A stretch of 64,000 nucleotides of DNA from Parazoarcus communis (GTDB taxonomy: Bacteria > Pseudomonadota > Gammaproteobacteria > Burkholderiales > Rhodocyclaceae), in the NCBI RefSeq assembly GCF_003111665.1, contig NZ_CP022188.1, forward strand, positions 682,001-746,000, in the 5' to 3' direction. Both the position numbers and the translations under genes were made by a program. Each line of letters opens with the position of its first letter. Position 1 is the stretch's first letter. Below are positions 11,487 through 13,367 of the stretch, piece by piece. The notes below the pieces were generated by a model. It did not search any database, was not told the DNA's origin, and saw nothing but the letters and a program-made list of their open reading frames with translations.

Positions 11487-12318
11487 CATACGCACCACCG
11501 CCCTTCAAGCATCGCCCCCTTTTTGCAGCTTCGGCCGCCTGATCGGCGTCTCCCTCGGCCCCGGCGACCCCGATCTCATCACCCGCCGCGGGTGGGCGGC
11601 GCTGCAGTCAGGCGCGCGCTGGGCCTATCCGGTCAAACGCGCCGAGGAGACTTCATACGCACTGGGAATCGCCCGCCGCGGCGGACTGGCGATTCCGGAC
11701 GACGCTGCAGAGCTGGTCTTCCCGATGACGCGCGACGGCACCGCGCTGGCCAAGGCGTGGGCGCGTGCCGCGAGCCGCACGGTCGAGCTGCTGGCGAGCG
11801 GACGCGATGTCGCTTTTCTGGTCGAGGGCGATGCCTCCACTTACTCCACCTTCCGCCACCTAGCGCGCGCAGTGCGCGAACTGGCGCCCGCTGTCACCGT
11901 GGAGACCATCCCCGGCGTCAGTTCATTTGCCGCGGCCGCCGCCCGAGCGGATGTGGCGCTGGCCGAAGAGGACGAAACCCTGGCTGTCATCCCCGCCGCC
12001 TACGGCGTGCCGGTGATCGACCATCTGCTCGACGAGTTCGACACCCTGGTGCTGATGAAGGTCAAGCCGCTCCTCGACGAGGTACTGGACCTGCTCGAAC
12101 GACGCGGGCTGATCGCCACCAGTTGCTTCATCGAGAAGGTTGGCTCACCTGAGGAGCGGGTGGTGCGCGACGTCGCCAGCCTGCGCGGAGAGAAGGTGAA
12201 TTACCTGTCGCTGCTGCTCGTGCAGAACCCGAAGCGCGTGCGCGGAGAACTGCGCCGCGGCTGTCGCAAGAGATCAGAGGGATCGGATATCACTGCAGCA
12301 GCAGAGGCCGCCACGTGA
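11479..12318 (+). CDS. cobI: Precorrin-2 C20-methyltransferase
   Basis: A 279-residue CobI/CbiL family SAM methyltransferase with VSLGPGDPDLITRRG at the N-terminus, FLVEGDASTYSTF and ETIPGVSSFAAAAARA. It methylates C-20 of (cobalt-)precorrin-2. The ATG at 11479 is preceded by a strong CAGGAGG eight bases upstream. The last six codons and the stop lie inside the left arm of the palindrome at 12301-12530, so the native C-terminus may have been altered by that element. Confidence 0.94.
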   Translation: MNDIRTTALQASPPFCSFGRLIGVSLGPGDPDLITRRGWAALQSGARWAYPVKRAEETSYALGIARRGGLAIPDDAAELVFPMTRDGTALAKAWARAASRTVELLASGRDVAFLVEGDASTYSTFRHLARAVRELAPAVTVETIPGVSSFAAAAARADVALAEEDETLAVIPAAYGVPVIDHLLDEFDTLVLMKVKPLLDEVLDLLERRGLIATSCFIEKVGSPEERVVRDVASLRGEKVNYLSLLLVQNPKRVRGELRRGCRKRSEGSDITAAAEAAT

Positions 12319-12530
12319 AGCGCGCCGCTGTGGTTGGCGGTCGGGCTGTCGAGAGCGCCGGCTCGTCGGGCGTCCGCGGGGAAACAAGACGGTGCATGTC
12401 TGAGTGAGCGTAGCGAGCGAGTTTGCACCGTCGCCCCGCAGACGTTCGACGAGCCGGGAAGCCGAAGGCCGCGAACGTCTGCCCGACCGACGACCGCAGC
12501 GGTACGAGCGCTTCGCGTGGCGGCCTCTGC
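12301..12530. repeat. About 230-bp imperfect palindrome between cobI and cbiG
   Basis: Four successive arm pairs nest symmetrically. They are 12301-12323 with 12508-12530 (22 of 23 paired); 12325-12346 with 12481-12502 (19 of 22); 12359-12381 with 12434-12456 (20 of 23); and 12388-12396 with 12424-12432 (9 of 9). The central 27-nt loop contains GTGAGCGTAGCGAGCGAG. The right arm also holds its own 11-bp hairpin (12438-12448 with 12472-12482). No ORF is credible inside. It resembles a compact mobile or repetitive structured element, or a long RNA hairpin, and it breaks an otherwise overlapping operon. Confidence 0.85.
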
Positions 12531-12590
12531 GGGCCACCCCCACCTGGACGCAACGACTTAACAGAATCCATATAGAAGAAAGAATTCGCC

Positions 12591-13367
12591 ATGACCCAAC
12601 ACCTCCCCTTCCCCAATAACAAAGTCGCCGTCGTCTCGATCACCCGGCACGGCATTGCGCTCGCCAGCAAGGTGGTGGCCGCCCTGCCCGGTGCCACGCT
12701 GTTCGCGCCGGAGAAATTTCACCGCGAAGCCGAGGCGGCCGCACCGGGTGCCTTTGCCTGCTTCTCCGGCAAGACCGGTGACCAGTTCCCGGCACTGTTC
12801 GCGGCTTTCGACGGCATCATCTGCATCGTTTCGCTCGGTGCGGTCGTTCGACTCATCGCTCCGCATCTGAAGAACAAGGAAAGCGATCCCGGCATCGTGG
12901 TGCTCGACGAAGCCGGGCGTTACGCCGTCCCCGTACTCTCCGGGCACCTGGGCGGCGCCAACGCACTGGCCGGCGTGCTTGCCCACACCCTTGGCGCACA
13001 ACAGGTGCTCACGACGGCCTCCGACGCCCGCGAAACCCTCGCGGTCGATCTGCTCGGTCGCGAACTGGGCTGGACCTTCGAAGCCAGCCACGACGAAATC
13101 GTGCGAGCCAGCGCCGCCGTAGTGAACGACGAACCGGTTGCGCTGGTGCAGGAAACCGGCAGCACCGACTGGTGGTCGCGTCACGCCAACGGTCGCAGCG
13201 GTAGCCTGCCCGCCAACCTGCACCGCTTCGACCGCCTTGAAGACATCGACCCGGATGCCTTCGGCGCCGTGCTGTGGGTCAGCAACCGCAGCCTGCCTGA
13301 CACGCTTGCCGAGCGTTTAAGTGGAAAGAAAGTCATCTACCGCCCCACTGCCGCGAGCGTGCAGTGA
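12591..13367 (+). CDS. cbiG: CbiG N-terminal/central protein (cobalt-precorrin-5A hydrolase)
   Basis: A 258-residue protein matching the N-terminal and middle CbiG domains. It opens the delta-lactone of cobalt-precorrin-5A and releases acetaldehyde. Recognisable parts are VAVVSITRHGIALASKV at the N-terminus, GIICIVSLGAVVRLIAPHLK, and VPVLSGHLGGANALA. Full-length CbiG (about 350 residues) carries a CobE-like third domain; here that part is a separate overlapping gene (GTGA, 13364-13367). The AGAAGAAAGA stretch upstream of the ATG can serve as a ribosome-binding site. Confidence 0.9.
   Translation: MTQHLPFPNNKVAVVSITRHGIALASKVVAALPGATLFAPEKFHREAEAAAPGAFACFSGKTGDQFPALFAAFDGIICIVSLGAVVRLIAPHLKNKESDPGIVVLDEAGRYAVPVLSGHLGGANALAGVLAHTLGAQQVLTTASDARETLAVDLLGRELGWTFEASHDEIVRASAAVVNDEPVALVQETGSTDWWSRHANGRSGSLPANLHRFDRLEDIDPDAFGAVLWVSNRSLPDTLAERLSGKKVIYRPTAASVQ

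Follow-up and report, generated by a model that had tools for sequence, protein, structure and literature searches.

The window, a 64,000-nucleotide stretch of Parazoarcus communis contig NZ_CP022188.1, was found to contain at positions 12301-12530 a near-perfect palindrome of 230 bases, with three long arm pairs and a fourth of 9/9 bases, located between a cobI/cbiL gene and a cbiG-like gene (Table 1). The spacer running from the cobI stop at 12318 to the cbiG-like start at 12591 is 272 bp long and is mostly occupied by this element, in contrast to the three frames downstream of the cbiG-like frame, which follow one another with consecutive 4-base overlaps. A preliminary description of the locus had pointed out the gap at this junction and had placed the final codons of cobI within the left arm; both points were borne out, the stop codon at 12318 lying inside 12301-12322.

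The palindrome itself is real, as the arm pairs were located and the plus strand of 12301-12530 was predicted to fold as RNA at -173.9 kcal/mol (z -13.88), compared with a mean of -110.05 (sd 4.6) for 200 dinucleotide shuffles, none of which folded as low (0/200). The opposite strand gave -151.8 kcal/mol (z -10.4). The loop letters GTGAGCGTAGCGAGCGAG noted earlier are present in the element. The "independent 11-bp hairpin" ascribed to the right arm is a genuine feature with conserved letters, but it is smaller than claimed, with just three pairs and a GAA loop in the fold (GCCGAAGGC, 12461-12469). Base 12424 has a double role, being the last base of the apical motif and the first of the 3' side of stem P3. 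Within the window, covariance model R2 scores above 20 bits at the family core alone.

Table 1. Coordinates of the features at the cobI-cbiG junction (window positions) and of the element copies close to Y1 transposase genes in genome G329 (locus positions).
Feature	Position	Strand	Basis or remark
cobI/cbiL, precorrin-2 C(20)-methyltransferase	11523..12318	+	start uncertain; stop codon at element boundary; NCBIfam match above curated cut-off
Whole palindromic element in present form	12301..12530	+ (the element's own, better-folding strand)	arm search, fold
Outermost arm pair	12301-12323/12508-12530		23 nt, 96%
Outer left arm, equal to the cobI 3' end (last codons, stop and 4 nt)	12301..12322	+	sequence, junction comparison
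Outer stem P1, 5' side	12325..12351	+	letters differ among copies, pairing retained
Conserved 144-nt family core	12342..12485	+	covariance model R2, 147.3 bits
Stem P2, 5' side	12358..12381	+	arm search, alignment
Stem P3, 5' side	12388..12396	+	sequence, fold, alignment
Apical motif, TGTCTGAG - P4 hairpin - CGAGTTT	12397..12424	+	the part conserved most widely across the superfamily
Stem P3, 3' side	12424..12432	+	pairs with 12388-12396, 9/9
Stem P2, 3' side	12434..12457	+	pairs with 12358-12381, 24 nt, 88%
Small conserved hairpin GCC-GAA-GGC at three-way junction	12461..12469	+	fold, alignment
Outer stem P1, 3' side	12476..12502	+	pairs with 12325-12351, 27 nt, 81%
Outer right arm, repeating the cobI end in inverted form (21/22)	12509..12530	-	junction comparison; not found in G002
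cbiG-like gene 3' of element	12591..13367	+	NCBIfam family models match below their cut-offs
Y1 gene in G329	L310:1633-2403
Element in G329	L310:2684-2817
Element in G329	L311:1499-1627

A DNA search of the genome to which the window belongs (G000, 4.89 Mb) returned five further copies with E values of about 1e-13 or better. Covariance model R1 was built from 24 copies (alignment A1) out of the 28 with coordinates, the omitted ones being L006 and L057 (variant junction), L038 (a 98% copy of L001) and L062 (whose ends could not be located). With this model 6, 7, 4, 7, and 6 places above 50 bits were found in the five genomes that represent the genus (G000, G001, G002, G003, and G004, respectively), and R2 adds one further place in G000 at 60 bits. 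Carriers identified by a pattern scan were Azoarcus sp. L1K30, Parazoarcus communis SWub3, an Azoarcus MAG, Azoarcus sp. Aa7, four Aromatoleum species, three Thauera MAGs, and one gammaproteobacterial MAG. Within the bacterial family, R1 at an E value of 0.001 detects the element in 34 of 249 genomes, representing 11 of 68 genera, the window's own genome counted. The palindrome had been proposed to be a small transposable or repetitive element at the end of cobI, a proposal that has held up: the element is repetitive and probably mobile, with other copies in the host genome and in relatives, compensatory changes among copies and some orthologous spacers of relatives without the element. On searching Rfam release 15, window positions 12000-12900 matched only microRNA models, below their curated scores, and ten other element loci gave no match.

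A variant subfamily (L006, L057, and L083, at G000:C1:1678132, G002:C1:2970377, and G001:C1:3517732, respectively) keeps the apical motif and has flanking frames in common with L108 of another genus; in L006 and L057 the junction loop is swapped for the pairing letters CTGTCGT/ACGACAG. Locus L008 (G000:C1:2694607-2694633) is another palindrome, which has mainly TCTGAGTGAGCGCAGCGAGCGAGTT-like loop letters in common with the element.

Among the 24 aligned copies, 47 of the 65 predicted pairs show two-sided compensatory change and 96.9% of the cells pair, compared with 72.7% for shuffled and 37-48% for slid partners. Cells with two-sided change number 355, against 103 with shuffled and 58-93 with slid partners. 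Many letters of the loops, by comparison with the changing stems, are nearly fixed in these copies (CTGTC..GAGCGCC, GGAAACAAGGCG, TGTYTGAG...CGAGTTT, and AGCCGAAGGCCGCGA). The cells that depart from Watson-Crick pairing are one-sided, with 73 G-U/U-G against 11 A-C/C-A over the 24 rows, 70 against 8 when only variable helices with a fixed register are considered, and 52 against 10 (p 6e-8) in the 17 rows left after removal of seven sister copies (the orthologues L039 and L058 being retained). Because G-U exceeds A-C in this way, the folded strand appears to be under selection. The element's own strand also folds better in 35/35 near cores and 33/35 distant cores, compared with 26/70 and 26/61 control segments; this comparison is partly circular, the models having been built on that strand, which applies much less to the wobble count in fixed helices. 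These observations point to a folded single strand, RNA or ssDNA alike, as the selected form, and the covariation and wobble bias make a search for a binding protein and for transcripts worthwhile.

Six orthologous sites (A-F) are common within the genus, and at four of them one genome has the element in inverted orientation (35 of 38 copies were folded for this comparison, L062, L078, and L083 being omitted). Inversions were identified at the cobI-cbiG junction in G002, at site C in G001 and at site D in G004, while site E carries the element in two genomes in differing orientations. Site A is flanked by alaS and a phosphomutase-like gene; the element occupies it in six genomes, drawn from two genera, and in a single orientation throughout. 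Site F holds it in one orientation in three genomes, with flanks common to four loci, one of another genus. According to frame calls, the element lies between convergent genes at site A, between divergent genes at sites C and E and between tandem genes at site F; as frame directions differ among sites, it is not tied to one direction of transcription. No R1 match was obtained in the site E spacers of G002, G003, and G004 or in the site D spacers of G002 and G003. Neither a target-site duplication nor a clean empty site was seen at these sites, the element-free spacers holding other DNA. Stems were also found to change in place, the 45 kept pairs showing two-sided changes at 12 (site A), 2 (B), 8 (C), 15 (D), 5 (E), and 1 (F), with unpaired columns more alike than paired ones at 6/6 sites. 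A 3' remnant of a second, opposite copy could be read from the sequence at site E in G000, and differential loss from an ancestral divergent pair may be the source of some flips.

At the cobI-cbiG junction the element is held by three Parazoarcus-type genomes. Of 22 cbiG-anchored loci that were scanned (a set without G003 and G004, the G002 element having been located separately via locus L039), a match above 20 bits precedes cbiG only in those of G000 and G001. The 22 nt of the outer left arm are identical in G000, G001, and G002. An inverted copy of them forms the outer right arm in G000 and G001 (21/22), whereas the agreement in G002 is 12/22, with shuffled junctions giving a mean of 12.9/22 and reaching 21 in 0 of 300 cases. 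The copy of the cobI end in two genomes, and its absence from a third with the same cobI end, suggests that the arm grew via template switching, and is most simply read as a lengthening of the right arm through copying of cobI in such a manner. Template switching is reported to make arms alike and to turn spacers around (PMC8604942), and RNA hairpins are reported to arise and be maintained through it (PMC8794818). The arm copy of cobI together with the flips at fixed sites provides a natural system for testing the part of template switching in stem pairing.

The family was found to belong to a larger group. R2, built from 53 sequences, detects members in 29 of 369 genomes and 25 of 272 genera of the class, and at an E value of 1e-4 in 8 of 398 genomes drawn from the phylum, all eight of the window's class (the share of the draw from outside the class is not given). 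R1, although built without the distant members, reaches distant loci at the same places with up to 65 bits. Copies of the distant type have the apical motif and a GGGAACCCGAAGGGC-like hairpin in common with the element, have a GCCGAGCANCGCAG / CGAGNAGCGCAGG loop, and often carry a tail, CTTTCTTTTGGTTACTTTTCTTTG...CAAAGAAAAGTAAC. A third model, R3, covers a 91-position core of the distant type, with a structure lacking stem P3, and was made from 21 of 38 distant copies and one Variovorax copy; it finds matches in 102 of 399 genomes and 52 of 159 genera of the order (with at most 10 candidates scored per genome). As R3 gives no match in the window's own genome, the link of the window to the superfamily runs via R1 and R2. 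The superfamily core as clipped is 90-112 nt in 22 rows, being 91 in several members. A hairpin-forming repeat family thus looks to be widespread in related bacteria, and it is large (as the R3 count in the order indicates), yet the tested loci match no Rfam release 15 family at its curated score.

Copies are also found close together. Among 21 pairs of neighbors less than 700 bp apart, 14 are divergent, 5 tandem, and 2 convergent, a count that includes weak partners (the weakest at 23.9 bits in L131 and 24.0 bits in L103) and leaves the tandem pairs of G827 uncounted. At locus L099:670-1989 five alternating copies form an array, the period being ~591 bp. No plasmid record matched the window element or the L104 type; for the distant type including its tail, 13 and 21 records were matched, in most cases across the tail alone, and 4/5 of the plasmid loci had no R2 match. 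No phage match was obtained. The apical pattern was present in 26 stretches of viral contigs, and R2, run on 10 of these, gave hits in L231 only (19.9 and 15.2 bits).

With regard to a mobilizing enzyme, 39 Y1_Tnp genes were found in 16 of 26 genomes, and for two of them, both in G329 (contigs C5 and C11), an element lies within 0.6 kb, at distances of ~0.57 and 0.37 kb. R2 on 30 Y1 loci gave 2 matches, one of them partial at 26 bits, and the other 25 genomes showed no Y1-element neighbor among the matches listed, bar one partial match. By rough arithmetic ~0.04 such neighbors would be expected, against the two in G329, a number too small for a verdict yet too large to be set aside. An all-against-all comparison of 88 loci with elements masked revealed no recurrent neighbor gene beyond the orthologous sites, one weak group of four loci (L102, L107, L146, and L151; 25-36% identity) and some pairs.

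Several known repeat systems resemble the element. Integron attC sites and the ends of IS200/IS605 elements are folded single-strand substrates with variable stems and conserved extrahelical bases, a likeness which is one of resemblance only. ERIC, RUP, and NEMIS/Correia sequences are non-coding, intergenic, structured and dispersed, as is the element; for the latter no target duplication could be read from the element-free spacers. All three have been named among MITE-like small repeats (PMC3110155). REP sequences, described as 20-40 bp long with a terminal GTAG or CGTC tag (PMC3733652), share with the element the features reported there for REP, BIME, and REPIN with RAYT, namely dispersed intergenic palindromes, compensatory stem variants, inverted pairs and clusters. 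Membership is contradicted by length (144 nt for the core and 230 nt for the whole) and by the tag, as neither GTAG nor CGTC occurs at either end of 12301-12530 or of 12342-12485. As for the RAYT transposase, a full-length element match lies near a Y1 transposase in one genome of 26, among the matches listed.

The closest published counterpart, perhaps overlapping with the superfamily, may be the Beta-proteobacterial repeat element, BRE (Hot et al., 2011; PMC3110155). BRE are described there as intergenic and multi-copy, ~90 bp long (75-91 in Bordetella), with a G+C content of ~69% and features of mobile elements, occurring in Bordetella, Comamonadaceae, and as one copy in Azoarcus sp. EbN1. 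Size (core 90-112 nt in the superfamily), habitat and taxon range appear similar, as compared by description and not by letters. The window type differs in its long P1 and three-way junction, and no tandem array of the window type was seen in the genus. The BRE position beside lexA, scanned at 21 loci from genomes among which Bordetella was possibly not represented, gave no match, and two five-letter strings that were sought are absent from the main text of PMC3110155. In the published literature that was searched the element was recognized nowhere except possibly as BRE.

The same observations can be read in other ways, of which the main rival is that the copies are resident multi-copy small RNA genes with promoters of their own, the structure being kept for protein binding or target pairing. 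The strand-specific wobble bias, the near-invariant loop letters and the retention of site A in two genera in one orientation would all fit, as do the flanks at site F, and, if BRE are the same thing, so would their overlap with the Northern-detected bprJ1/bprJ2 in Bordetella (PMC3110155). This reading is nevertheless unlikely, as copy number and sites vary among congeneric genomes, the copy is inverted at 4/6 sites and no sigma-70-like site precedes the window copy, the sole hit in 12150-12700 lying downstream at 12558. Pairing could alternatively result from template switching or gene conversion between the arms of a selfish palindrome with no selection on the folded strand. The arm copy of the cobI end, stem letters changing in place and inversions at orthologous sites are what such a palindrome would show; however, symmetric correction of arms should, by our reasoning, leave G-U about as frequent as A-C, which is not the ratio observed, and similarity is higher in unpaired than in paired columns at each of the six sites. 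Of the explanations considered, it is the one to which we attach the least credence.

A cis-acting role in the operon is only slightly less improbable than the selfish palindrome just discussed. In such a role the element would act as an attenuator, RNase III site or mRNA stabilizer parting cobI from cbiG and the later genes, as in the earlier suggestion that it attenuates or processes the second half of the operon. An mRNA hairpin of this length would plausibly be cut by RNase III, the sense strand of the operon in the window is also the one that folds better, and the element interrupts an otherwise tight run of genes. That suggestion fared poorly: the element is inverted at the same junction in G002, it precedes cbiG (match above 20 bits) in just 2 of the 22 anchored loci, those of G000 and G001, and at sites C and E the frames on either side of the copy were called divergent. 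No U-tract terminator was found in 12150-12700 and no cobalamin riboswitch (Rfam) in 12000-12900. An attenuator or riboswitch of the cobalamin genes was judged unlikely on these grounds, and an effect of the element on the operon is, as far as can be predicted from sequence, unlikely.

The explanation we prefer, and hold to be reasonably probable, is that of a dispersed repeat without genes of its own whose folded strand is selected and which is spread by a trans-acting protein, with template switching acting on the arms and the cobalamin operon carrying it as a passenger. The family is probably non-autonomous, moved or maintained by a factor which reads the folded strand. A protein acting in trans would probably bind the conserved internal-loop and apical motifs and so spread the family, while the long stems would need only to pair, their letters being free to change. 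In the window a copy sits at the stop codon of cobI. Template switching between the arms would keep them alike, would flip the interior in one lineage and would place on the far side a copy of the final 22 nt on the left, which are cobI sequence. With respect to the operon, the element is most likely a passenger. The family, its structure, the strand bias, the inversions, the element-free spacers and the arm copy are direct observations, from which mobility, the trans-acting factor, template switching as mechanism and passenger status are inferred. Against this explanation are the lack of a target duplication, the other DNA in spacers without the element and the outcome of the Y1 and neighbor-gene comparisons, which singled out no enzyme, and the constancy of site A (six genomes, two genera, one orientation) and the flanks of site F would also suit a resident functional RNA. 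More tentatively, and with rather less confidence than for the passenger repeat itself, the superfamily could represent class-wide strand-specific structured repeats whose near-fixed internal-loop motifs are acted on, as substrate, by a mobility system processing RNA or ssDNA and whose stems enlarge by copying neighboring host sequence.

Some further sequences were observed around the junction and in relatives. The cobI-cbiG spacers L161, L162, and L168 hold other palindromic sequences in other genera (at least 3 of 18 junctions inspected), as though repeats were tolerated when they land at the end of cobI. Distant relatives of the element in two other genomes of the bacterial family, at L168:1260-1403 (G090, 48.9 bits) and L169:2351-2494 (G016, 32.7 bits), sit just 3' of the cbiG match, in or at the edge of a cobalamin cluster. 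The tail CTTTCTTTTGGTTACTTTTCTTTG with its hairpin was found without an R2-detectable core at L254, L256, L257, and L258 (Paraburkholderia, Pseudoalteromonas, Aeromonas, and Burkholderia), and the tail occurs at no fewer than 40 places in three Paraburkholderia megaplasmids; it is perhaps a separate module common to several types of repeat.
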